This document shows, one piece after another, positions 1 through 58,773 of a DNA stretch of 64,000 nucleotides. The DNA lies in NCBI GenBank assembly GCA_036141575.1, contig JAYZXF010000012.1, positions 1 through 64,000 of the forward strand. The letters are read 5' to 3'. The first letter of the stretch is position 1. Every line of letters starts with the position of its first letter. Position numbers and translations under genes: made by a program. The DNA is from Pseudomonadota bacterium (GTDB lineage Bacteria; Pseudomonadota; Alphaproteobacteria; UBA2136; JAPKEQ01). The notes beneath the pieces were generated by a model, which saw only the letters and a list, made by a program, of their open reading frames with translations, searched no databases and was not told where the DNA came from.

Positions 1-1
1 T

Positions 2-3000
2 TCAAATGGTGGTGCAGCAACCTCTTTAAGCTTAAACCCTTACGGTGGTCAGGTAAGTATTGCAGATCATGTTTCAGCAACCCTGAACCTGAATGGCAAT
101 AATATTGTAAAAGTATTGGACCCTGTTGCTGATCATCATGCAGCAACAAAAGGCTATGTAGATGCACAAATCGCCTCTGGCGGTGCTGATAACCTTGGTA
201 ACCATACGGCAACGCAGAATTTGGTTACAGGTGGTTATTATATCTCTAATGATGGTGACGATGAAGGTTTTTATGTGAGAGCTGACGGTAATGCTTCTGT
301 TGGTCCTGCCGGAACCGTTGGTGCTGCAAGGTTATCTGTTGCAGGTGCTCTTAAAATTTCAAGTGATGGTAATGGATGTAATGCTGCTAATGCAGGTACA
401 TTAAAGTACGTAGGAGGGTATTTACACATTTGTGATGGTACTCAACTGCGCTATTTAAGTGAACTTGGTCAACGTGCTGCTGTTGCAAACGTTGATATGG
501 CAAGTAATACGATTATAAACGTTGCCACGCCAGTAAATACTGAAGATGCAGCAAATAAGGCTTATGTAGATGCCGCTGTTGCTTCTGGCGGTGCTGATAA
601 CCTTGGTGACCATACGGCAACGCAGAATATTATTCTGGGCTCTAATGTCCTAACAAATGATGAAACGCTGAACGCGGGCGGAACCGTTAATGGTATTACG
701 CTAACAGGTACGCGAATCAACCAAGAAGGTTACAGTGGTGGTGGAGGTTTTGTTGGCATAACTGTAAATAACAGAGCCACAACAGGTGAATCAGGAATTA
801 TTTTCCAAAATGGGCCAACGGTAAACCGAGGCTCTATTCTTGCAAGAACATCAGATGCAGGGGCAACATCATCAGAAATGGCTTTTGTTATTAGGGATAA
901 TGACTCGTACGAAGAAAGAGTCACGTTAACACGTGATGGCTTAGGTATTGGTACGGCCTCTCCATCATCAACGCTTCATGTGGCAGGTGACTCAACGGTA
1001 TCTGGTATCTTTGAAGTTGATGGTGATAATAATAGAGGTATCTCTATTATGCGTTATGCAGATTTTGTTCAGCCGATGGCTTTGCGTGTTCATGCAGAAG
1101 GATCAGGAACAGCAAACCAAGCCTTCTTCTTCCCAACTCAGGCTATTTCAGGGACTCAAGTTGGTTACGTTGGGGTTGGTGTAAACCCTGCAGAGGTTCC
1201 TCCTCAGTCTCGCTTGCATGTTTACGGTGATCTTCAGGTTGGTAATGATAGCGCAGCCTGTAGTGTGGGTAAAGCCGGTGCAATTCGTTATAACTCTGGC
1301 GATATTGAATTCTGTAATGGTACAGCATGGGCGTCAGTTGGTGGCACAGGTGCGGACAACCTTGGTGACCATACGGCAACGCAGAACATTGAGCTCGCAG
1401 GCAACTGGCTTTCAGGTGATGGTGATGCTGAAGGTGTTCAGGTTCATAACGGTGGTGGTGTCGGCCTTGGTGTTGCCGCAAGCGCTGATGGTATTAATTT
1501 GCATGGTTACCGCGTACGTATTTTAGATCCTGGCGGGGCATCACAAGCAACGCATATGTTTATACGCAATGATGCAGGTAGTGATTTAGACTTTATTTCT
1601 TACCATACAGACCATGTTGGTGGAAGACTCTTTAATGTGGACGCTGGCGGTGCTGCTATTGCTTATGGAGGTACGGGCAGGTTAGCTCTGGGTACAACGG
1701 CGAGTCAGCCCATGTCTTTCAGCACAAACAATGCTGAGCGCATGCGTATTAATAGTGCAGGTAATGTAGGTATTGGAACTGATAGTCCATCAAGCACACT
1801 TCATGTAGCTGGTGATGTTCAGATTGGTAACTCAAGTGCGACATGTGCCGCTACAACAGCAGGTGCCATTCGCTATAACTCTGGTGATGTAGAGTTTTGT
1901 AATGGTTCAGCTTGGGCCTCAGTTGGTGGCTCAGGTGCGGATAACCTTGGTAACAAACAAGACTTTGCAAATGGTTATAGTAACTTCCTGCGTTTAGGTA
2001 TTGATGCCAATAATAATGAAACGAGCGCCTATGCGGGGTATCTGATTTTTAATGATTTAGCGGATACGGCGACAGCAAACCAAGCTTCAGCATATTTTGC
2101 ATATGATGAGCGTGTTAGTGGTATTAAAATTGGTACAGGTAATGTGCAGTCAGCGACTGACGCAACAGCTATTTATCTAAAGTCTGACGGTAAGTTTGGT
2201 ATTGGTACAGAGTCTCCATCAAGTACGCTTCATGTTGCGGGTGACCAGCGCCTAGATGGTAACCTGATTTTTAGCCCTGAAAATAATGGTTCGAATGATC
2301 AGACGTCTATTGAGGTGGAAGGGACTGCAAGTCTCGCACTTTATGCAGACAGTGTGATTAACTTTTATGAAAGTGATGATGATATTCGCAAAATGCGATT
2401 TGATCTAAACAATGCGCAAATGACGATTGGTAATAACGCTCAAGAGGCTTCTTCTACGCTTTATGTGGATGGTGATATTCAGTTGGGTGACCAAAGTCAT
2501 GCATGTGTGGCAGCTAAAGCTGGTGCGATTCGTTATAACTCAGGTAATGTAGAATTTTGTAACGGTACAGCTTGGGCTGCTCTCTCGTCTGCTTCTGGTG
2601 TTGGTAATGCTGGTGGTAATAACACTGAGGTGCAGTACAACGGTGCAGGTACGCTTGCAGGTCACGCTGACTTTACGTACAACGGTGCGGGTATGCTTGC
2701 TCTTACGGGTGACCCATCAACAAGTCTTTATATTGATAACAATGCAGCCACTGGTTACGGTATTAGCGTGAATGCAGGTCACGCCAATAACAATGTCAGT
2801 GCAATTTCTGCTGTAAATGCAGGTGATGCAGGTACGGCAGTGTATGGTGGAAGCACTTCAGCATCAGGTACAACGTTTGGTGTACGTGGTGATGTCGCTA
2901 GCCCGAACGGAACAGCGATTCAAGGTTATGCATCCTCTTCAACAGGTGCAACAAAAGGTGTGTATGGTCAAACTCAAAGTGCCTCTGGTATTGGTGTGAT

Positions 3001-5206
3001 GGGTTATGCAGGTCACGCATCTGGCGGTATGGGTATTTATGGTGAAACCGCTGCAAGCGGTGGCGCAGCTATTATGGGTTATGTCGGTAATGCCACAAGT
3101 ACTGCAACAGCAGTTTATGGTGAAACAGGTAGTAACGCTGGTGCGTCAGGTGTGATGGGTTACGCCACAAATGCAGCCGGCACGTCAATTGGTGTAACAG
3201 GTATTACAGGTAGTGCCAGCGGACATGGTGTTTATGCTGATAATACAGCCGGCGGCCCAGCTATTGGCGTTGGTACGGGTAATATTGCTCTATCTGATAG
3301 TTATATTTCTAACGATGGTGGCGATGAAGGTATCCGTATTGATAATAATGGTAACGTGGGTATTGGTACCACGTCACCAGACTCGCCTCTGCATGTAGTT
3401 CAAGGGGGTTCATCTGGTGCTGGTATTGTATCTGTAAGGCATGGTGGGGCAGCTGTTGTTCGTGTACGTAGGACTAATGGTACAGAAGCTCTCCCAACTG
3501 CTGTTCTTGCCGATAATGTTATTGGTAACTTTAGTTTCCAGGGGTATGCTACAACGGATTATCTTGATACAGCGTCTGCAGCAATTAAAGCGATTGCAGA
3601 AGAAAACTTTACAGATTCAACAGGTGCTGCAGCCTTAAGGTTTGATACACGCCCAACCGGTGTAGCCGTTGCTACTGAGCGTATGCGTGTTACATCTGAA
3701 GGTTTGGTTGGTATTGGTACGGATAGTCCATCAAGCACACTTCACGTGGCAGGTGATATTCAAGTTGGTAACTCAAGTGCGACATGTGCCGCTACAACGG
3801 CTGGTGGTATGCGTTACAATGGCGGTGCTATTGAATATTGTAATGGCACGGCTTGGACAGGCCTGGCTGCTGGTGGCGGTGATAACCTTGGTAACCATCA
3901 GGCTGCTCAGAATATTGCTATGGGGAGCTATAGAATTAGTGCAGATGGAGATGAAGAAGGCCTTGCTTTTAATGCAAACGGTACAGTTTCTGTTTCTGCA
4001 TCAGTGGTGGGAAGCTCTTTATATGTAGTTAACTCTACTTCGAATGGTTCTGCAGTGGGAGCAAGTGCTCCTGCTTTAGGGGCTGCCTTTTACACATATC
4101 TAAATAATTCAGCAAGTCGTGGTTACCGCGCCTATGTAGACGCATCTAGTGCATCAGGATTATTTGTGGAAGCTATTGCTGCGAATTCAACAGGTGGTGT
4201 CATTAATGCAAACCATGCTGATGCTGTTGGTTTAAGTGTTCGAAATACCAACGCAACAGGAAAGGCGATTGTTGTGCCGAGTGGCCTTGTTGGTATCGGT
4301 ACGGATAGCCCATCAAGCACACTCCATGTTTCAGGAACACTTATTGTTGCAAATGGCGGTGAGGCTTGTGCGGCAACAACTGCCGGTGGTATGCGTTACA
4401 ATGGTGGTGCTATTGAATTTTGTGATGGCTCATCTTGGACAGCTCTAGGTGCAGCTGGTGGCGGTGATAACCTTGGTAACCATCAGGCAGGTCAAACAGT
4501 GGTTCTGAATAATAATAGAATTGCCAATGATACAGGTGCGAATGAAGGTATTAGTATTGATGGAAACGGGCGAGGGACGTGGGGCTTTTACGCTGATCCT
4601 TTAGATGGTCCTGTCGGTTTAACGTTGAATAGTTTGACAGGTACAAATGGAACGACACCTTCAATACACTTTGCTCAAAACTGGACAACTATGGGGCATG
4701 TATCTGCTGTTTATGATGGTTACTATAGTGGTCAGCATAATGCACATATGCGTATTTCAAACACATCAAACACGCAAATTTGGCTAGATGCTGCAGGCCT
4801 TGTAGGTATTGGTACAGAAGACCCATCAAGCACACTTCATGTTGTTGGTGACGGTACATTTAACGGTGAAGTCTTCGCAACGCAGTTTAACGGTAGCTCG
4901 GATGAGCGCCTGAAAGAGAACATCCGTACAGTGATGAACCCTATTGAACTGATCCGTAAGATCCGTGGTGTGTTCTTCACATGGAAAGAGAGTGGTAAAG
5001 AAAGCTCGGGTGTGATTGCCCAAGAGGTACAAAAAGTCATGCCTCAAGCTGTGAAGCAGCGTCCTGATGGCATGCTGTCTGTTGAATACGATCAGCTGAT
5101 TGCACCACTTATTGAAGCTGTGAAGATTCAGCAAGATGAAATTGAAGCTCTGAAGGCACAAAACGCTGACTTACTGGAGCGCGTGAACAATCTGGAGGGT
5201 AAATAA
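2..5206 (+). CDS. Large fibre-like surface protein with C-terminal S74 chaperone domain (5' partial)
   Basis: The reading frame is open from the first bases of the window, so the N-terminus lies upstream; 1734 residues are visible. It consists of irregular repeats. Collar-type units resemble 'DAANKAYVDA', and spacers 'GADNLGNHTATQN' are followed by 'SGDGDxEG' segments. 'GIGTDSPSSTLHVAGD' units occur about six times, each often followed by a two-cysteine unit (C..AG.IRYN.G..EFCNGTAW). The last ~100 residues (from nt ~4895) match the peptidase S74 intramolecular chaperone of phage tail spikes and endosialidases: 'SSDERLKENIRTV', 'GVIAQEVQ', 'VEYDQLIAPLIEAVK', then a coiled coil. In that family the domain drives trimerisation and cleaves itself off through a Ser/Lys pair. 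The role as a trimeric cell-surface fibre or adhesin is inferred. The next gene is its paralogue, 0 nt away. Confidence 0.8.
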   Translation, partial: SNGGAATSLSLNPYGGQVSIADHVSATLNLNGNNIVKVLDPVADHHAATKGYVDAQIASGGADNLGNHTATQNLVTGGYYISNDGDDEGFYVRADGNASVGPAGTVGAARLSVAGALKISSDGNGCNAANAGTLKYVGGYLHICDGTQLRYLSELGQRAAVANVDMASNTIINVATPVNTEDAANKAYVDAAVASGGADNLGDHTATQNIILGSNVLTNDETLNAGGTVNGITLTGTRINQEGYSGGGGFVGITVNNRATTGESGIIFQNGPTVNRGSILARTSDAGATSSEMAFVIRDNDSYEERVTLTRDGLGIGTASPSSTLHVAGDSTVSGIFEVDGDNNRGISIMRYADFVQPMALRVHAEGSGTANQAFFFPTQAISGTQVGYVGVGVNPAEVPPQSRLHVYGDLQVGNDSAACSVGKAGAIRYNSGDIEFCNGTAWASVGGTGADNLGDHTATQNIELAGNWLSGDGDAEGVQVHNGGGVGLGVAASADGINLHGYRVRILDPGGASQATHMFIRNDAGSDLDFISYHTDHVGGRLFNVDAGGAAIAYGGTGRLALGTTASQPMSFSTNNAERMRINSAGNVGIGTDSPSSTLHVAGDVQIGNSSATCAATTAGAIRYNSGDVEFCNGSAWASVGGSGADNLGNKQDFANGYSNFLRLGIDANNNETSAYAGYLIFNDLADTATANQASAYFAYDERVSGIKIGTGNVQSATDATAIYLKSDGKFGIGTESPSSTLHVAGDQRLDGNLIFSPENNGSNDQTSIEVEGTASLALYADSVINFYESDDDIRKMRFDLNNAQMTIGNNAQEASSTLYVDGDIQLGDQSHACVAAKAGAIRYNSGNVEFCNGTAWAALSSASGVGNAGGNNTEVQYNGAGTLAGHADFTYNGAGMLALTGDPSTSLYIDNNAATGYGISVNAGHANNNVSAISAVNAGDAGTAVYGGSTSASGTTFGVRGDVASPNGTAIQGYASSSTGATKGVYGQTQSASGIGVMGYAGHASGGMGIYGETAASGGAAIMGYVGNATSTATAVYGETGSNAGASGVMGYATNAAGTSIGVTGITGSASGHGVYADNTAGGPAIGVGTGNIALSDSYISNDGGDEGIRIDNNGNVGIGTTSPDSPLHVVQGGSSGAGIVSVRHGGAAVVRVRRTNGTEALPTAVLADNVIGNFSFQGYATTDYLDTASAAIKAIAEENFTDSTGAAALRFDTRPTGVAVATERMRVTSEGLVGIGTDSPSSTLHVAGDIQVGNSSATCAATTAGGMRYNGGAIEYCNGTAWTGLAAGGGDNLGNHQAAQNIAMGSYRISADGDEEGLAFNANGTVSVSASVVGSSLYVVNSTSNGSAVGASAPALGAAFYTYLNNSASRGYRAYVDASSASGLFVEAIAANSTGGVINANHADAVGLSVRNTNATGKAIVVPSGLVGIGTDSPSSTLHVSGTLIVANGGEACAATTAGGMRYNGGAIEFCDGSSWTALGAAGGGDNLGNHQAGQTVVLNNNRIANDTGANEGISIDGNGRGTWGFYADPLDGPVGLTLNSLTGTNGTTPSIHFAQNWTTMGHVSAVYDGYYSGQHNAHMRISNTSNTQIWLDAAGLVGIGTEDPSSTLHVVGDGTFNGEVFATQFNGSSDERLKENIRTVMNPIELIRKIRGVFFTWKESGKESSGVIAQEVQKVMPQAVKQRPDGMLSVEYDQLIAPLIEAVKIQQDEIEALKAQNADLLERVNNLEGK

Positions 5207-8200
5207 ATGAACTTCCAGAAAATGAACATTACACAAGGTGTAGGATATAAGGCTATGAAAACAAAAACACTAAAGCGCTTATTTATTTTAACAACACTCA
5301 TGATGCTGCCACTGGTTGCCACTGCGCAAACCTGTCCTGCAGCGCCTGTGGGTGATGTAAAAGATCCTGTATTCCAGCTTATTGCAAATGCAAGTGATCG
5401 TTTTCAGATTGGTGCAACAGACTCTGTAAGTAGCACAATTCGAGGTGCGATGGTTTGGGATGATACCAATAGCACAATTGCTGTTTGTGATGGCACAAAT
5501 TGGGTAACGCTTGGGTCTGGCGGCGGTGGCGCAAATGCTCTAGATGATTTAACCGATGTGACAAACGATGGTGACAGTCAGTTATTTGCACGTGGAGTTG
5601 CGGATCCAACAACAATGACACAAAGTGTTGTGATTGGTCAAAATGCGGCTGTGAATGCAACTGGCAGTCTTACAAACAGTGTGTTTATTGGTTGGGAAGC
5701 AGGTGGTCGAGCTGTAAACCCTGACGGTAATATGCTTGGAAACACAGTGATGGGTGCCCGTGCAGGGTATGGGCTGAGCCATAATGCCAATGATAACACC
5801 ATTATTGGTTATCAGGCTGGTCAAGGTGTTGAAAATGGCGATGAAAACGTACTTATTGGTAAGCTTGCGGGTAGTAATATTGTAGGCGGAGGACGTAACA
5901 TTATTATTGGTTCTAATACTTCAGCGCTTGGGCCAACAGTATTTGATACTCTAAATATTGGTAATACAATTTATGGTGATACCAGTGAGACAACAGTGGG
6001 TATTGGTGTTGAGTCTCCATCAAGCACACTCCATGTAGCAGGTGATGTTCAGATTGGTAACTCAAGTGCAACATGTACAGGCACAACAGCCGGTGCGATG
6101 CGCTATAACGGCGGTAACATTGAGTTCTGTAATGGTACAGCTTGGGGCGCTATGGGTGGCGGCGGTGATAACCTTGGTAACCATACTGCAACGCAAAATA
6201 TCCAACTTGGCAGCTATTACCTAAGTGGTGATGGCGGTGATGAAGGGATTACTGTTGATAGCACTGGTCAGGTTGGTATTGGTACGGCCTTTCCATCTGA
6301 AACATTGCATATTATGGGTACTATTAGAGCGGAAAGTAACCTCCCTATTATGTCTCTCTTTGATATAAATGGTGGAGTTGATCTAAAGCGCTGGGACTTG
6401 CGTGTAGAATCTGGTGGTATATTACGTGTTCAAGCTTTAAGTGATACAGGTTCTGGTGGTGGTCAAATTATTGACTTTGGCAGATCTGCTAATAATGTGG
6501 CATATGCAAAATTTGGTAATAATATCCCAGCACTATATGTAGATGTGATTAATGATGATGTTGGTATTGCTACAGATAGTCCATCAAGCACCCTTCATGT
6601 AGCTGGTGATATCCAAATTGGTAACGATAGCGCGACGTGTGACAGTGATCGTGCTGGTGCAATCCGTTATAATGGCGGCGTACTCCAGTTTTGTAATGGT
6701 ACAGCTTGGGGCACGCTTGGTGTAGCAGGTGGTGGTGATAACCTTGGTAACCACCAGGCTGGTCAAAATATTCAACTTGGTAATTATTACCTAAGTGGTG
6801 ATGGTGACGATGAAGGAATTACTGTCGCGAATGATGGTAAAGTTGGTGTTGGTTCTGGAGACCCTGCACAAAACCTGCATGTTTATGACTCTGCAGCCGA
6901 AGGTGAAATTATTGTTGAGGGTGACGAGACAAAATGGTCTGGTTTAACGTTAATAACAGCAGGTGATGGTCAGACAACGCATTCTAATGCAGGCGCTAAA
7001 GCTTGGTCTATTTATGCTGGTGGAGAAAATTATACAAACGTGGCGCAACGTGAAGATTTAGGTTTTTCTTACTGGAATGGTGCAAGCTGGAAAGTTCCTA
7101 TGATGATTAAAGATGGCGGTAATGTTGGTATTGGTACTATTGAACCTTCAACAACACTTCATGTGGATGGCGCTGCGCGTGCAGGATCTTTCCAGTGGGA
7201 AGATGGTGTAAACCGTATTACCAATAATGATGGTGGCGGTAACGTAAATATCCGCTTTGGTCATGAACATGATGGTGGCCAAGTCTTTACCCATGCTGGT
7301 GGTGCGGCTGAAATTGAATCTAATATTGATAACGTGAGCAATACATACCTAGATTTCAGAGTATCCTCTAACCCTGGTGCGGGAACTGGTCAACCAGTCA
7401 CGTGGGGCTCGCTCTTCCGTATTAGTAAAGATGATGTAACGTTTGATGGTACCTCTCTGCTAGGGGGCGGTGCTGATAACCTGGGTGACCATGTCGCGAC
7501 ACAAGTGCTAGATATGGGGTATAACTCTATTTCTAAAACCAGTTATATTTCAGTAAATGATGGTGTGAACAGTAATTATGGTTTCATTACTGAGGCGGGC
7601 CTTGATGGTATTGGTTTAACGGGTAATTCAGCACGACTAAATGATCCTGAGTTTTATGTAAGCGATTCTGGTAGAATTGGTATTGGTACAACAGCGCCAA
7701 GCACAATTCTAATGATTGAGAATAATGGTTCAACAGTGGTGCGTGCAAGAGGGCATGATAATTCAGCTATCCAAGGTGCTCCTTATTATATTTCTGAAAA
7801 AGCTCGTGGAACAAAAGCTGCCCCACTTGCTGTACAAAGTGGAGATAACCTCGCAGCTTATGAAATGGGTGGTTATGATGGCTCAGGTTATACAGGGGCA
7901 ACAGCATCTGTAAAAGCATTGGCAACAGAAAACTTTACCAATAGTGCACATGGTACGGCCTTGCGTTTTGAGACAACGCCAGAAGGAACAATTACGCGCC
8001 AAACACGTATGTATATTGGTGCTGATGGCAATGTAGGTATCGGCACACAGGCACCATCTAGCACATTACATGTTATTGGTGACTCATACTTGGGTGCGGC
8101 GTCTTCAGTGCAAAGAACATTTGTTTCATCTTGGGGGGTGGGGTCTGATATAGATACACTCCTTCCTGGTTCGACATCGGGGCCATTCTTAGAAGGTGGA

Positions 8201-8932
8201 TCAAACAGTCATATGGTCTTCTCTCTAAGAGATAATGATGCAAATGATGGTTTCTACTTTGTCGGTACAGGAGGTAACTATGGGACTGATAATACTCGAG
8301 ATGAAGCATTGATGACCATTCAGAGTGACGGTGATGTAGGTATTGGTACAACAGCGCCGAATGGTACGTTGCATGTCAATAGTACATCTGGTGATGCAAT
8401 CTATATTGCAAGTGGCCTTGTGAATGGTGCTGATATTAGAATGGGTGCAGCAGGTTTTCTACTAGCTGATGCTTCAGTACATGTAGGTTTGGATGGAACA
8501 AACTCTTCTACAACGTCTAAATTTAGAATTGTAAAAGATGTCACAACTGATCCTGGCTCTGCTCCCTCAGTATTTGATGTGAGTGAGTCAGGTGCTGTTG
8601 TTGCCAGTGGTACCGTTACAGCCACTGGTTTTATAAACAGTTCGGATAAACGCCTTAAGGATGAGATCCGCACGGTCATGAATCCTCTGGAAATTGTCAA
8701 GAAACTTCGCGGTGTGTTCTATAAGTGGAAGGACTCTGGAAGAGAAAGCGCAGGTGTTATTGCACAGGAAGTACGTGAAGTGCTGCCAAGTGCTGTGCAT
8801 GAGCGCGAAGATGGGATGCTTGCTGTAGAATATAACCAATTGATTGCACCGATGATTGAAGCCATCAAGCTGCAACAAGAACAGATTGACGCTCTGAAAG
8901 CTGAAGTTGAGGAATTAAAACGAGCTCAATAA
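5207..8932 (+). CDS. Secreted fibre-like protein with C-terminal S74 chaperone domain
   Basis: Paralogue of the preceding gene; 1241 residues. The ATG at 5207 has a strong GGAGGG (5194-5199) 7 nt upstream. An internal ATG at 5255 begins a cleaner signal peptide ('MKTKTLKRLFILTTL...ATAQ'), so mature export is likely with either start. A head-like region around residues 190-240 has 'NTIIGYQAG', 'NVLIGKLAG', 'NIIIGSN' units. Then come 'GIGT..PSSTLHV' units with the two-cysteine insert 'C..TTAGAMRYNGG..EFCNGTAW'. The S74 chaperone starts near residue 1145 ('SSDKRLKDE', 'GVIAQEVREV', 'VEYNQLIAPMIEAIK') and ends in a coiled coil. The signal peptide argues for a cell-envelope protein, not a phage tail fibre. 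Function as adhesin or fibre is inferred from domain architecture only. Confidence 0.8.
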   Translation: MNFQKMNITQGVGYKAMKTKTLKRLFILTTLMMLPLVATAQTCPAAPVGDVKDPVFQLIANASDRFQIGATDSVSSTIRGAMVWDDTNSTIAVCDGTNWVTLGSGGGGANALDDLTDVTNDGDSQLFARGVADPTTMTQSVVIGQNAAVNATGSLTNSVFIGWEAGGRAVNPDGNMLGNTVMGARAGYGLSHNANDNTIIGYQAGQGVENGDENVLIGKLAGSNIVGGGRNIIIGSNTSALGPTVFDTLNIGNTIYGDTSETTVGIGVESPSSTLHVAGDVQIGNSSATCTGTTAGAMRYNGGNIEFCNGTAWGAMGGGGDNLGNHTATQNIQLGSYYLSGDGGDEGITVDSTGQVGIGTAFPSETLHIMGTIRAESNLPIMSLFDINGGVDLKRWDLRVESGGILRVQALSDTGSGGGQIIDFGRSANNVAYAKFGNNIPALYVDVINDDVGIATDSPSSTLHVAGDIQIGNDSATCDSDRAGAIRYNGGVLQFCNGTAWGTLGVAGGGDNLGNHQAGQNIQLGNYYLSGDGDDEGITVANDGKVGVGSGDPAQNLHVYDSAAEGEIIVEGDETKWSGLTLITAGDGQTTHSNAGAKAWSIYAGGENYTNVAQREDLGFSYWNGASWKVPMMIKDGGNVGIGTIEPSTTLHVDGAARAGSFQWEDGVNRITNNDGGGNVNIRFGHEHDGGQVFTHAGGAAEIESNIDNVSNTYLDFRVSSNPGAGTGQPVTWGSLFRISKDDVTFDGTSLLGGGADNLGDHVATQVLDMGYNSISKTSYISVNDGVNSNYGFITEAGLDGIGLTGNSARLNDPEFYVSDSGRIGIGTTAPSTILMIENNGSTVVRARGHDNSAIQGAPYYISEKARGTKAAPLAVQSGDNLAAYEMGGYDGSGYTGATASVKALATENFTNSAHGTALRFETTPEGTITRQTRMYIGADGNVGIGTQAPSSTLHVIGDSYLGAASSVQRTFVSSWGVGSDIDTLLPGSTSGPFLEGGSNSHMVFSLRDNDANDGFYFVGTGGNYGTDNTRDEALMTIQSDGDVGIGTTAPNGTLHVNSTSGDAIYIASGLVNGADIRMGAAGFLLADASVHVGLDGTNSSTTSKFRIVKDVTTDPGSAPSVFDVSESGAVVASGTVTATGFINSSDKRLKDEIRTVMNPLEIVKKLRGVFYKWKDSGRESAGVIAQEVREVLPSAVHEREDGMLAVEYNQLIAPMIEAIKLQQEQIDALKAEVEELKRAQ

Positions 8933-8970: not shown

Positions 8971-11900
8971 GTGGAAGCTGTGTATAAAATAATAGGGAAA
9001 CTAAAAAGGACTCTGTTGCTACTAGGGGTACTGTGCGGTGCCTCTTTCAGCGTTTATGCGGCCGATGGTCATGTTGTGGCACACACAGCGAATGTTAATA
9101 TTGATGAGCATGGTATTTGCTACAATGTAGATAATCAACACCTTTCCACTGAAGCTATCTTTGTGCCAACAAAAACTCTGACAGAATGGCAAAGTTTTAT
9201 CGATGAGGCTCCAGAAAATGTAACGCTAATTTCTTGCAATGACCTTGCCTGTCTTAACCCTGCAAATGTCAATACAATTGGTCCGGCAGGGTCTATTTGT
9301 GATGGGATGTTAATTGTTGACAATGCAATGCTGCATACAGCTGCTTCCGCTGTGGTGGGTGGGGATGAATCATACGATATAAATCATGCAGGTACAGAGT
9401 ACTCATTTGCAGATACTGCAAATAATGTCTTTACAGGACAAGTGACAGACTATGACAGCCTGTTTGAGAACACTGCCTTTAATGGTGATATTGGCTATTG
9501 GGATACCCGCAGTGCTGCAAACTTTAATGACACATTTAGAGGGGCTTCATCCTTTAACCAAGATATTAGTGGTTGGGATACGTCAAGTGCCTCAACAATG
9601 AGTCAAACATTTAGAGATGCCACAGCCTTTAACCAAAATATTGGTTCATGGGATATGAGCAATGTGACGTCTATATTTGGAATGTTTAGAGGAGCGACAG
9701 CCTTTAATGGAGATATTACAGGCTGGGATGTGAGTAATGTAAGCTCAATGCGTAATGCTTTCCAGGGGACGGATTCATTCAACCAGCCAATTGGTGTTTG
9801 GACAACGTCATCTCTTTCAAACTTAGGTTATACATTTAGTGGCGCAGACGCCTTTAACCAAGACCTTTCAGGTTGGGATGTAAGTGGTGTAACTGACATG
9901 AATAGTGCATTCTATAGCACTGATGCCTTTAACCAAGATCTATCGGCATGGGATGTAAGTTCTGTAACTAATATGCCGAGCATGTTCTCTAATGCAACAG
10001 TATTTAATGGCAATATCACGACTTGGAATACGGCAAGTGTAACAAATATGGCGAGTATGTTTGCTGGCGCGCCTGCCTTTAACCAGAATATTGGATCATG
10101 GGATACAGGCAATGTAACCAACATGGCGAACATGTTTGATAATGCCACAAACTTTGATGGTAATATTGGTAGTTGGGATACAAGTAGCGTTGATAGCTTT
10201 GCATATATGTTCAGAAACGCACAAAGCTTCAACCAAGATGTAGGTAGCTGGAATACAGCAAGTGCAACAAACATGGCTCGCATGTTTAACAACGCCGATG
10301 GTTTCAACCAGGATCTAAATAGCTGGGATGTAAGTAACGTTACCAATATGGAGTACATGTTCCAAAGTACATCTGGTTTCTCAGGAGATATCTCGAGCTG
10401 GGATGTGAGTAATGTGGTAACGATGGAAGCTATGTTTGCTGGTATGGCTTACACAGGTGATATTTCAGCATGGACCCCAACAAGTCTTGAAAACATGAGG
10501 GCTATGTTTGATAACGGTAGCTTTGGTGGTGATATCTCAGGCTGGACTACGCCAAACCTAACAAATATGAACGGTGCTTTTGGGCGTAACACTGCCTTTG
10601 TTTCAGATCTGAGCAGTTGGGATGTCTCTAATGTAACAGATATGACGAACCTGTTTTATAATACAGACAGCTTTGTTGGCGATATTTCTGGTTGGGACAC
10701 CTCAAGTGTAACAAGTATGAGTGGTATGTTTTATGGTCACGATAATTACAATATTGACCTGAGCAGTTGGGACACAACCAATGTGACGAACATGAACAAC
10801 ATGTTCAACGGTGCAACATCATATAACCAAGACCTATCAGGTTGGTGTGTGCCAAATATTGCCACTAAGCCAGGGAACTTTGATTTAGGTGCAACAGCGT
10901 GGACTGGTGACCCTGACACACGCCCACAGTGGGGTACATGTCCGGCTCTGGATGCAGCATGTTTCAACCCTGCAAACGTAAATACAATTGGTGCAGAGTA
11001 CTCGATTTGTGAGGGTATGCTGATTGTAGATAATGCAATGCTCCGCGCAGAAGCATCAGGTAGTGCAGGTGGTAATGGATCATTTGATATTGTAGGTCCA
11101 GATAGCAATACATACACCTTTGCCGATAGCACGTATAATGTCTTTACTGGTCAGGTAACAGATATGAGTGACCTCTTCAGAGGCACGTCATTCAATGGTG
11201 ATATTGATTACTGGGATACAAGTAATGTGACAGATATGGCTTGGATGTTCGCAAATAACAGCTCCTTCAACCAATATATTGGGAGTTGGGATACAGGTAA
11301 TGTAACAGATATGGCTGTGATGTTTATTAGTACAGCCTTTAACCAAGATATTAGTAGTTGGGACACAAGCTCTGTGACAGCCATGGGTGGAATGTTCCAG
11401 AACAGCTCAGCCTTCAACCAAGATATTGGCGGATGGGATGTGAGCAATGTCACCAATATGGATACCATGTTTGCAGGTACAAGTGCCTTCAACCAGAACA
11501 TTGGCAGTTGGGATACAAGCGCAGTGACAACAATGAATGGTATGTTTAACTGGGCAACAGCCTTTAACCAAGATTTAAGCGGCTGGTGTGTAAGTAATAT
11601 TGCCTCTGAACCATCAAACTTTGATGATGGTGCCGGTAGCTGGACCGATCCGAAGCCTGTATGGGGCACATGTCCGGCTCTGGATGCAGCATGTTTCAAC
11701 CCAGCAAACGTGAATACAATTGGTGCAGAGTACTCGATTTGTGAGGGTATGCTGATTGTAGATAATGCGATGTTACGCGCAGAAGCTTCAGGTAATGCAG
11801 GTGGTAATGGGTCATTTGATCTTGTAGGTCCAGATAGCAATACATACACCTTTGCTGATAGCACATATAATGTCTTCACCGGTCAGGTGACGGATATGAG

Positions 11901-14193
11901 CGACCTCTTCAGAGGTACGTCATTCAACGGTAATATTGGCTACTGGGATACAAGTAATGTAACTGACATGGCTTGGATGTTTAATGGTAACAGTTCATTT
12001 GACCAAGACATTGGTAGCTGGGATACAAGCTCTGTAACAGATATGGCTGTGATGTTCCTGGGTACCTCATTTAACCAAGACATTAGTGGCTGGGATACAA
12101 GCTCTGTAGTAAGTATGGGCGGTATGTTCCAAAACAGTGCTGTGTTTAACCAAGATATTAGTGGCTGGGATACAAGTAATGTAACCAATATGGATACCAT
12201 GTTTGGTGGTACAAGTGCCTTCAACCAGAACATTGGCAGCTGGGATACAAGCGCGGTTACATCAATGAATGGTATGTTTAACTGGGCAACTGCCTTTAAC
12301 CAAGATTTAAGTGGCTGGTGTGTAAGCAACATTGGTTCTGAGCCTTCAAGCTTTGATGATGGTGCAGGCAGCTGGAGCGATCCAAAACCTGTATGGGGCA
12401 CATGTCCTGTTTTACCAACACATGCAGAATGTTACAACGCGGCGAACGTGGGTACAGTTGGTACATGGCAAGGCTGTAACGGCATGCTGATTGTAAGTAC
12501 GGCTCAGCTGCGTGCAGAAGCATCAGGTAATGCAGGTGGTAATGAATCGTTTGATCTTGTAGGTCCAGATAGCAATACATACACCTTTGCTGATAGCGCA
12601 TATAATGTCTTTACAGGTCAAGTTACTGATATGAGTGATCTATTCAGATCCACTACATTTAATGGTGACATTGATTACTGGGATACATCTAATGTAACGG
12701 ATATGCACTGGCTCTTTGCTTACAACACTACCTTCAACCAGCCAATTGGGAGCTGGGATACATCTAATGTAACAGATATGTACTGGCTCTTTGCTTATAA
12801 CTCTGTCTTTAACCAGCCGATTGGAAGTTGGGATACGAGTTCAGTGACACAAATGAACTATATGTTCCGTGCGGCAACTGGTTTCAACCAAGATATTGGG
12901 GCTTGGGATACTGGCGAAGTCACGAATATGGAGAGTATGTTTGATGGTGCTTCTGCATTTAACCAAGACCTTTCTGGTTGGTGTGTAAGTAACATTGGTA
13001 GTGAGCCGTTCTTCTTTGATCAGGGTGCCACAAGTTGGACAGAGCCTCAGCCTGTATGGGGAACATGTCCTGGTGGGCCTCCTCCTGTTGTAACAGACTG
13101 TTTCGCGCCAGCAAGTGTTGGCGGTGTCGGGGATACAGGTACCGTATGTGAGGGTATGCTCATTGTTGATAACACAACTCTACGTGCTGTCGCATCTGCG
13201 AGCGCGGGTGGTGATGAATCATTCAGTATTGATGCCGGTGGTACGTCTTACACATTTGCAGATGATGCCAATAATATCTTCACAGGTCAGGTAACTGATA
13301 TGAGTAACCTATTAAGGTCTACAAGCTTTAACGGTGATATTGGTTACTGGGATACTGCAAATGTAACAACTATGCAGAACCTGTTCTACTCAGCATCAAG
13401 CTTTAACCAGGATATTAGTGGTTGGGATGTAAGTAGTGTGACCAATATGTATAGCACATTCTATGGCGCTTCAGCCTTTAACCAGCCTATTGGCAGTTGG
13501 GATGTCAGTAGTGTGACAAACATGTATGGTATGTTCTATAATGCTTCAGCCTTTAACCAGCCTCTTGCGACTTGGAATACTGCAAGCGTAACGAATATGG
13601 CAAGAGTGTTCTATGGTGCTGCGGTCTTTAACCAAAATATTGGTGGCTGGAACACGGCTAACGTGACGGATATGAGTTATATGTTCCGTGATGCCGGTGC
13701 CTTCAACCAGCCTATTGGTGGCTGGAACACGGCTAACGTGACGGATATGAAATATATGTTCTATAACGCTGATTCCTTTAACCAGAGCATTGGTGCTTGG
13801 AATACCTCTAATGTAACTACTTTTGGTAATATGTTCCAAAACAATAGTGGATTTAACCAGCCTATTAGTGGATGGAATACTGGTTCAGCAACGCATATGC
13901 ATAGTATGTTCCGTAGTGCGACAGCGTTTAACCAATATATTGGTGGCTGGAATACCTCAAACGTTACTAACTTTGTAAGAATGTTTGATGGTGCAACATT
14001 ATTTAACCAGAATATTGGTGGCTGGAATACAAGCTCAGCAACAAACATGACAGAGATGTTTGATGGGGCCTCATCATTTAACCGCCATCTAAATGGTTGG
14101 TGTGTGAGTAATATTGGTAGCGCGCCAAGCTATTTTGATAGGAATGCAACCAGTTGGACAGCGACAAGACCTATATGGGGATCATGTCCGTAA
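8971..14193 (+). CDS. Secreted BspA-like (DUF285) repeat surface protein, five modules
   Basis: 1740 residues. The GTG at 8971 is the proposed start (GTG 8980 also possible; no good Shine-Dalgarno). It gives a signal peptide ending 'FSVYAADG'. The rest is ~25-residue units of the type '[20 protein letters not shown]', the DUF285/BspA-like leucine-rich-type repeat of Mycoplasma and Treponema surface lipoproteins and of many secreted bacterial proteins. Units are grouped in five modules. Each opens with a '[10 protein letters not shown]...[11 protein letters not shown]' cap and closes with '[11 protein letters not shown]...W.GTCP'. Modules 2 and 3 are each exactly 732 bp (cap-to-cap) and nearly identical; module 4 is 663 bp. 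The paired Cys in each cap and closing unit probably form disulfides. Protein binding or adhesion is known for some family members; the ligand here is unknown. Confidence 0.8.
10941..12404 (+). repeat. Tandem 732-bp module repeat inside the BspA-like gene
   Basis: The landmark 'tccggctctg' starts at 10941 and recurs at 11673, and the equivalent 'tcctgttt' landmark is at 12405. This gives two tandem units of exactly 732 bp (244 codons) with long stretches of identical sequence. It looks like a recent in-frame duplication. Such repeats can expand or contract by recombination. Confidence 0.75.
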
Positions 14194-40183: not shown

Positions 40184-40289
40184 ATGCTCCGAAAGTTATA
40201 GTCTTTTAATACTGCTTTATCGCACATAGCTTTGCATGTGCGCTTGGATGTTTTTCACTTTCGTTCAAAACGTATGTCTTGGGCTTCGC

Positions 40290-46521: not shown

Positions 46522-46551
46522 CTTGAAAGTATCCTCTTTCATTCCTATATA
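46522..46551 (+). promoter_or_regulatory. Sigma-32-like promoter of small membrane gene 46639
   Basis: CTTGAA (46522-46527), 15-bp spacer, TCCTATATA (46543-46551). Perfect -35, degenerate -10. Confidence 0.45.
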
Positions 46552-46570
46552 TTTAAATAATCAAACATCT

Positions 46571-46628
46571 TTGTTCCGCTTGTTTGCGTCTGTAGAGGCG
46601 TTTTATGTGGAATGTTCCTCTGGAGGAG
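46571..46628 (+). ncRNA. Conserved structured leader motif, copy 1
   Basis: TTCCGC (46574-46579) pairs with GTGGAA (46607-46612). The internal loop is TTGTTTG / TTTTAT, and the inner stem is CGTCT (46587-46591)-gtag-AGGCG (46596-46600). Then a hairpin TCCT (46616-46619)-ctgg-AGGA (46624-46627) sequesters the GGAGGAG ribosome-binding site. Copy 2 at 58332 has the same architecture with compensatory changes. Confidence 0.6.
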
Positions 46629-46638
46629 TCATAGCATT

Positions 46639-46848
46639 ATGAGTGCAAAATCTATTTTGGAAGCAATGGGCTGGCTCAAGTGGCTTGCAATCCTGTACGG
46701 AGTTTTGACCTTTCCCTATGCACTGGATCAGATTCATGCTGGGGAGTTTTTCTCGCTGAGATCTGTCGTCATTGCTTCGGTGGTTATGGGCGTGTATTTC
46801 CTTCTTAAACACGTTCTTGAGAAAAGGGTGAAAGCTCAAGATGGCTAA
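46639..46848 (+). CDS. Small membrane protein of unknown function
   Basis: 69 residues from ATG 46639, 10 nt after GGAGGAG. Two hydrophobic stretches ('LKWLAILYGVLTFPYALDQI' and 'VVIASVVMGVYFLLKHVL') suggest two membrane helices, with a basic C-terminal tail. No family recognised. Its leader is nearly identical to that of the unrelated small membrane gene at 58398, and both have sigma-32-like promoters. Probably a stress-regulated inner-membrane protein. Confidence 0.65.
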   Translation: MSAKSILEAMGWLKWLAILYGVLTFPYALDQIHAGEFFSLRSVVIASVVMGVYFLLKHVLEKRVKAQDG

Positions 46849-46858
46849 TCGAAACCAA

Positions 46859-46886
46859 ATAAAGGGCTCCTTCGGGAGCCCTTTAT
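46859..46886 (+). terminator. Terminator between convergent genes
   Basis: AAAGGGCTCC-TTCG-GGAGCCCTTT. Confidence 0.88.
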
Positions 46887-46891
46887 GTTTG

Positions 46892-58283: not shown

Positions 58284-58313
58284 ATTGAAAATGGGCTTAC
58301 TCATCACCATAAT
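58284..58313 (+). promoter_or_regulatory. Sigma-32-like promoter of small membrane gene 58398
   Basis: ATTGAA (58284-58289), 15-bp spacer, CACCATAAT (58305-58313). Confidence 0.45.
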
Positions 58314-58331: not shown

Positions 58332-58391
58332 TTGTTCCGCTTGTTTGCATCCCTTGAGGGTGTTTTGTGCGGAATGTTTCTTTGGGAGAAA
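58332..58391 (+). ncRNA. Conserved structured leader motif, copy 2
   Basis: TTCCGC (58335-58340) pairs with GCGGAA (58369-58374). The internal loop is TTGTTTG / TTTTGT, and the inner stem is CATCC (58348-58352)...GGGTG (58358-58362). Then a hairpin TTTCT (58377-58381)-ttggg-AGAAA (58387-58391) covers part of the GGGAGA ribosome-binding site. Same order and spacing as copy 1 at 46571. Confidence 0.6.
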
Positions 58392-58397
58392 TCCAAA

Positions 58398-58727
58398 ATG
58401 AATGCCACCATCAAGAAAGCCGTGTTTGACTTTATCAACGCTGGTGACAACAGCATTGCAATTCGCCGGATCGCATACCTGCTCTGGATGATCGCATTTG
58501 CTGTATTGCTGTCATTTGGCAGCAGCTTGAGCACCCTCCTGTTTATTGGCGTACTCACTGTGATAGGGCTTGAATTGCACTTGATCAGAAATGAAGCCGT
58601 CACGGCTGATCTGCATGCAAGAGCTGCCGATGCCGGGGTGTCTGTTGACGACTATGTCTCGGAATGGCTGTTTGATATTCTGGAATACAACCCGGGTGAG
58701 ATTCGCGCACGCTGGGGACGTTGGTAA
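58398..58727 (+). CDS. Small membrane protein of unknown function
   Basis: 109 residues from ATG 58398, after GGGAGA; an upstream in-frame GTG at 58233 would read through the RND terminator and is rejected. Two hydrophobic segments ('IAYLLWMIAFAVLLSFGSSL' and 'STLLFIGVLTVIGLELHLI'), then a soluble tail 'AADAGVSVDDYVSEWLFDIL'. No family recognised. No sequence similarity to the gene at 46639, but the same leader and promoter type. Confidence 0.65.
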   Translation: MNATIKKAVFDFINAGDNSIAIRRIAYLLWMIAFAVLLSFGSSLSTLLFIGVLTVIGLELHLIRNEAVTADLHARAADAGVSVDDYVSEWLFDILEYNPGEIRARWGRW

Positions 58728-58747: not shown

Positions 58748-58773
58748 TAAGGCCCCCAGTTGGGGGCCTTTTG
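58748..58773 (+). terminator. Terminator between convergent genes
   Basis: AAGGCCCCCA-gt-TGGGGGCCTTTT. Confidence 0.88.

Follow-up and report, generated by a model that had tools for sequence, protein, structure and literature searches.

Among described mRNA leaders, the ROSE and fourU RNA thermometers combine a hairpin and a U-rich stretch near the ribosome-binding site with a heat-shock-like promoter, and the ompA 5′ stem-loop is a stabilising element in which the mRNA starts with a stable hairpin placed upstream of the ribosome-binding site. Comparative genomics has also brought forward 5′-UTR RNA motifs and orphan riboswitch candidates (for example PMC7266159, PMC8632094 and PMC11109978). 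The same small folded RNA has now been found before four small membrane-protein genes, unrelated to one another, from a pair of related, uncultured marine bacteria, and very probably represents a real, previously undescribed candidate control element; its kind is ordinary, and what sets it apart is that the four ORFan membrane genes it serves are unrelated.

Two copies lie on the plus strand of the window (the whole stretch of 64,000 nucleotides analysed), at 46571–46620 (copy 1, fold z −4.67) and 58332–58382 (copy 2, fold z −4.56), both matched by the covariance model. The original prediction had taken the two leaders to share sequence blocks, and this was borne out: exact copies of the 17-nt block TTGTTCCGCTTGTTTGC stand at 46571 and 58332 and nowhere else in the window, for a chance expectation of 0.39 even with three mismatches permitted, and the second block, GTTTT[A/G]TG[T/C]GGAATGTT[C/T]CT, is found in both leaders. 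It had also proposed that a covariance model be built from the two copies and run on relatives; such a model (R1), trained on the window copies alone, retrieved two additional copies from the sister genome of the genus (G001, the Antarctic MAG ANT-120, contig JAPKEQ010000041), at L011 4893 (E 8.8e-7) and 6979 (E 6.8e-6), situated 66 and 64 nt upstream of the ATG of small ORFs of 54 and 110 aa, respectively, and found no copy beyond the window pair in the window's own genome. A second model (R2), built from all four copies and run over the order (18 genomes) and over 385 evenly sampled genomes of the class, returned, beyond the known copies, just weak matches (E 0.001–10) that on reading were ordinary terminators or unrelated sequence and were rejected. 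A degenerate-pattern scan of 84,980 GTDB species gave ANT-120 as the sole genuine match, and the exact-pattern matches L001, L002, L004, L058–L060, L062–L065 and L104 were discarded as coding or chance sequences; the viral contigs, plasmids and phages searched held no credible relative of the window leader or genes. Rfam 15 gave no match at the gathering threshold in the window, and permissive scans of all four copies gave nothing credible, the best sub-threshold matches, each in one copy only, being to snoR72 (22.3 bits, cut-off 43) and suhB (15.9 bits, cut-off 41). The RNA family is missing from Rfam and, by the searches made, limited to one genus, in agreement with the earlier statement that no named riboswitch was known with this layout, which holds as to Rfam, where no family covers the element. 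An interpretation as a repeat or mobile element was dismissed, given only two copies per genome and limits that coincide with the promoter and the ATG. A region of the window's own genome (L097, 1500–1961) carries a promoter of the same type as the leaders, a look-alike two-stem leader and a gene for a 112-aa hydrophobic protein; it is possibly a distant member, and was not accepted as a further paralogue at a model score of 6.3 bits and a fold z of −1.1.

Both window elements (50 nt) fold into the identical two-stem hairpin, at −16.4 and −17.5 kcal/mol, with z of −4.7 and −4.6 and none of 200 shuffles equally stable, a result that was repeated with 1000 shuffles, and all four copies fold alike on the plus strand (z −3.7 to −4.6, 1000 shuffles). 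In copy 1, the outer stem P1 (46573–46579 with 46607–46613) encloses an internal loop made of UUGUUU on the 5′ side (46580–46585) and UUUAU on the 3′ side (46602–46606), followed by the inner stem P2 (46586–46591 with 46596–46601), each stem being given by the fold and the pair counts; in copy 2, the corresponding stems are 58334–58340/58369–58375 and 58347–58352/58358–58363. The two-stem hairpin with an internal loop is thus as first described, with corrected sizes: the outer stem counts 7 bp, its closing G-U among them, the internal loop measures 6 × 5 nt instead of 7/6, and the inner stem has 6 bp instead of 5. The terminal loop, of 4–5 nt, varies freely among the four copies (alignment A5), and conservation peaks in the internal loop, where UUGUUU is invariant in 4/4 copies and the opposite side reads UUU[AG][UC]. 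An RNA from the minus strand was rejected, the plus strand giving the clearly more stable fold in 3/4 copies, as was a ribosome-binding-site hairpin (P3) predicted by RNAalifold, for which single-sequence ensembles give no support in 3/4 copies.

The two co-varying inner-stem pairs of the original prediction are real (G18-C30 to A-U and U21-A27 to C-G, in columns of A5), the G-U/G-C difference in its outer stem was confirmed, and the independent sister-genome copies revealed a new compensatory change in the outer stem, U5-A42 to C-G. Over the four copies, 96% of pair cells are standard and three pairs, in five cells, are changed on both sides; when the partner was slid by 1–3 columns as a control, 37–65% were paired and 0–1 pairs had a two-sided change. 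Pair 5-42 divides the copies by genome and pair 21-27 divides them by locus, a difference in segregation that is not explicable by a single inherited block. The leader is, moreover, the most evenly conserved segment, with 70–75% identity between all pairs of copies, compared with 58–63% in the promoter except for one orthologous pair. Four copies from only two genomes confer low formal covariation power, and the covariation evidence may be regarded as good but not large-sample for sequences of this number.

The argument from the two window sequences alone was weaker than first presented, since their differences mostly fall also on synonymous third codon positions, so that a conserved peptide and a conserved RNA could not be told apart from two sequences, and independent copies were needed. 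A conserved coding sequence, be it a leader peptide or an N-terminal extension (LFRLFAS[VL]E / VLCGMFLW), might accordingly have been taken for RNA structure: nearly all differences between the window copies are on third codon positions, and VLCGMFLW is in frame with both window genes. Nevertheless, the frame in copy 1 is split by a 1-nt indel, the putative TTG starts have no preceding ribosome-binding site, and in both sister-genome copies the frame either runs into a stop or does not match that of the gene; since the MFLW frame is broken in both of these, coding fails as a common explanation, it leaves the base-paired changes unaccounted for, and it is hardly credible. With further copies in a relative, no Rfam family and the new compensatory pair (U5-A42/C-G), the original reading as a functional RNA is supported, the structure being conserved with compensatory changes (three pairs, 96% of cells) as expected of a cis-regulatory 5′-UTR RNA.

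Such a role also implies a fixed place between the promoter and the ribosome-binding site of a coding gene, and this was found, the hairpin following the promoter and preceding the ribosome-binding site and ATG in 4/4 copies. All four copies are preceded by a promoter of the form TTGAAA-N10-TCAT-N3-YATA, and the shared region begins further upstream than first noted, at this conserved promoter (46523 and 58285). The promoter of leader 1 (46522–46551) reads CTTGAA-N16-CCTATAT, and also TTGAAA-N17-TATATA, and that of leader 2 (58285–58313) reads TTGAAA-N17-CATAAT; the ribosome-binding sites are GGAGGAG after a pyrimidine-rich stretch (46622–46628) and GGGAG (58384–58388). The copy 1 promoter is an exact match, the sole one in the window, to the Sinorhizobium RpoH1 consensus CTTGAA-N15-16-CCTATAT in the form quoted in PMC4843759, and RpoH is encoded in both genomes with a score above the family cut-off. 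With two mismatches at most allowed, the two genomes together contain 22 sites of the promoter pattern, compared with 2 for a reversed control. Of ten genes scanned behind such sites, nine lack a Pfam family and no chaperone could be recognised, so that RpoH is no more than a candidate sigma factor. In G001 and the other of the two genomes, G000, the promoter class TTGAAAA-N9-TCAT-N3-CATAATAT (loci L082–L103) lies for the most part before genes that match no Pfam family; one gene behind it (L090) matches a RickCE-like catalytic domain family.

An alternative reading is a translational thermosensor under a heat-shock (RpoH-like) promoter, in which the U-rich stretch after the hairpin would pair with the ribosome-binding site in the cold. 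The exact RpoH1-type promoter of copy 1 and the presence of RpoH in both genomes are in agreement with this, and the U-rich stretch indeed faces AGGAG/GGGAGAAA, and one change there is compensatory (UUUCU/AGAAA to UUCCU/AGGAG). The small hairpin between the U-rich stretch and the ribosome-binding site, however, has a probability below 0.13 in 3/4 copies, predicted accessibility shows no consistent rise with temperature, the genes behind this promoter type are not chaperones, and the promoter is missing from the dnaK leaders, groES having a CIRCE-like repeat instead; a thermosensor is therefore judged improbable. The CIRCE-like inverted repeat (TTAGCACTC-N9-GAGTGCTAA) lies about 80 nt upstream of groES (L069) and suggests HrcA-type control of groES in the genus.

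The genes behind the leaders encode a 69-aa small hydrophobic ORFan (46639–46848, plus strand; codon use z 3.3, a transmembrane-like segment), followed by an intrinsic terminator called by the terminator scan (46859–46886), and a 109-aa small membrane ORFan (58398–58727, plus strand; codon use z 4.2, hydrophobic segments), followed by the terminator AGGCCCCCAGTTGGGGGCCT (58750–58769), close relatives of which stand after both sister-genome genes. All four downstream proteins (69, 109, 54 and 110 aa) show coding-like codon use and hydrophobic segments, and have no family match in Pfam, NCBIfam, PHROG or PADLOC. The claim that the genes after the two leaders are dissimilar was confirmed (69 versus 109 aa), similarity among the four proteins not being significant; no relative of either window protein was found in the order, the sister genome included, and the gene context of the four ORFans points to no ligand or partner. 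Copy 2 and the sister-genome copy G001b occupy equivalent positions before an ABC-F gene, with promoter, ribosome-binding site and terminator in common, and the proteins behind them share merely 20% identity over 65 aa. In the slot that holds copy 1 and the 69-aa gene, the sister genome carries instead an acetyltransferase-like gene of 161 aa (identified by eye). The preservation of the unit before the ABC-F gene while the proteins differ, together with the different occupation of the copy 1 slot, suggests that the regulatory unit either persists longer than the genes behind it or passes from one gene to another.

The copy 1 slot itself (window 46522–46891, corresponding to L077 935–1470) lies between PIF1-like helicase and RlmJ genes and is variable, with conserved neighbours. 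An intergenic repeat, ACATCYAAGCGC...AAGCTATGTGCGATAA, is common to the two genomes (window 40217–40251, minus strand; L011 4697–4835 and 7464–7600), and its G001 copies flank the region holding the two leader genes. Elsewhere in the window, 9547–14060 contains some 26 units of a repeat 75 nt (25 residues) long, F-N-x-D-I-x-x-W-D-x-S-x-V-T-x-M-x-x-M-F, which we take to resemble BspA/DUF285 surface repeats, and 1–8350 contains repeats encoding GIGT..PSSTLHV.GD, presumably typical of phage tail-fibre-like or surface proteins.

The reading favoured here, at somewhat better than even confidence, is that of a genus-restricted, cis-acting structured 5′-UTR RNA, combined into one unit with a promoter and ribosome-binding site of its own, and with an internal loop that is recognised by a trans-acting factor. 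In this unit of promoter, leader and ribosome-binding site, which would drive small lineage-specific membrane proteins, the transcript probably begins about 8–12 nt upstream of the hairpin, and the conserved U-rich internal loop, not the terminal loop, would be the recognised part, most likely by a protein and possibly by a small molecule. Binding of the factor would alter translation or degradation of the mRNA, since the end of the hairpin is only about 8 nt from the ribosome-binding site in the window copies. In the sister-genome copies, the 3′ strand of P1 would, once the outer stem opens, be available to pair around the ribosome-binding site, a possible off state; the alternative hairpin enclosing this site has z of −2.5 and −3.2 in these copies and of −1.2 and −0.9 in the window copies, and predicted sequestration of the site is inconsistent among copies, so that, with the alternative fold weak in the window, a switch may be considered no more than a possibility.

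Many of the same features may also be explained by a passive 5′ stem-loop that senses nothing, shielding the mRNA from 5′-end-dependent decay while the U-rich stretch aids ribosome loading. The hairpin is near the predicted transcript start, P1 pairs with a probability mostly of about 0.8 or higher, in 3/4 copies a U-rich stretch stands between hairpin and ribosome-binding site, and the terminal loop varies freely; for a stem with a purely mechanical role, nevertheless, the invariant UUGUUU internal loop and the opposite UUU would be needless, and this explanation is considered unlikely. It is less probable still that the element is a transcription attenuator or gives a short terminated RNA, with the hairpin and a U-run stopping most transcripts and read-through expressing the gene: the outer stem of the sister-genome copies is indeed followed by A and 6–7 U, but in the window copies the U-run is interrupted (UGUUUCUUU, UGUUCCUC), P1 is not called in any of the three copies put through the terminator scan, which picks out just the inner stem of copy 1, and no conserved antiterminator was seen.

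Beyond the favoured cis-acting RNA, it may tentatively be proposed that the element represents a new riboswitch-like or protein-recognised RNA class of a deep-branching uncultured alphaproteobacterial genus, a portable promoter-plus-leader placed before young, unrelated membrane proteins, a proposal that is possible rather than probable. If true, new genes would be placed under one shared post-transcriptional control. The element illustrates how lineage-specific genes can gain ready-made regulation, the regulatory unit staying while the gene behind it changes; the finding of a ligand or partner would establish a control system new to science in a marine lineage of which little is known.

In summary, the leader resembles the 5′-UTR RNA motifs and orphan riboswitch candidates (for example PMC7266159, PMC8632094 and PMC11109978) in being a short structured RNA between promoter and ribosome-binding site, with several copies before different genes, covarying stems and conserved loop residues, and differs from them in having no Rfam match, in its restriction to one genus and four copies, and in standing before unrelated ORFans that point to no ligand. 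A further likeness, to the ROSE and fourU thermometers, lies in the combination of hairpin, U-rich stretch and heat-shock-like promoter, although here the conserved hairpin excludes the ribosome-binding site, sequestration is inconsistently predicted, and Rfam gives no match. Like the ompA stem-loop, the leader is a stable hairpin near the predicted 5′ end of the mRNA, before the ribosome-binding site; unlike it, it has an invariant internal loop sequence and is reused on four unrelated genes.
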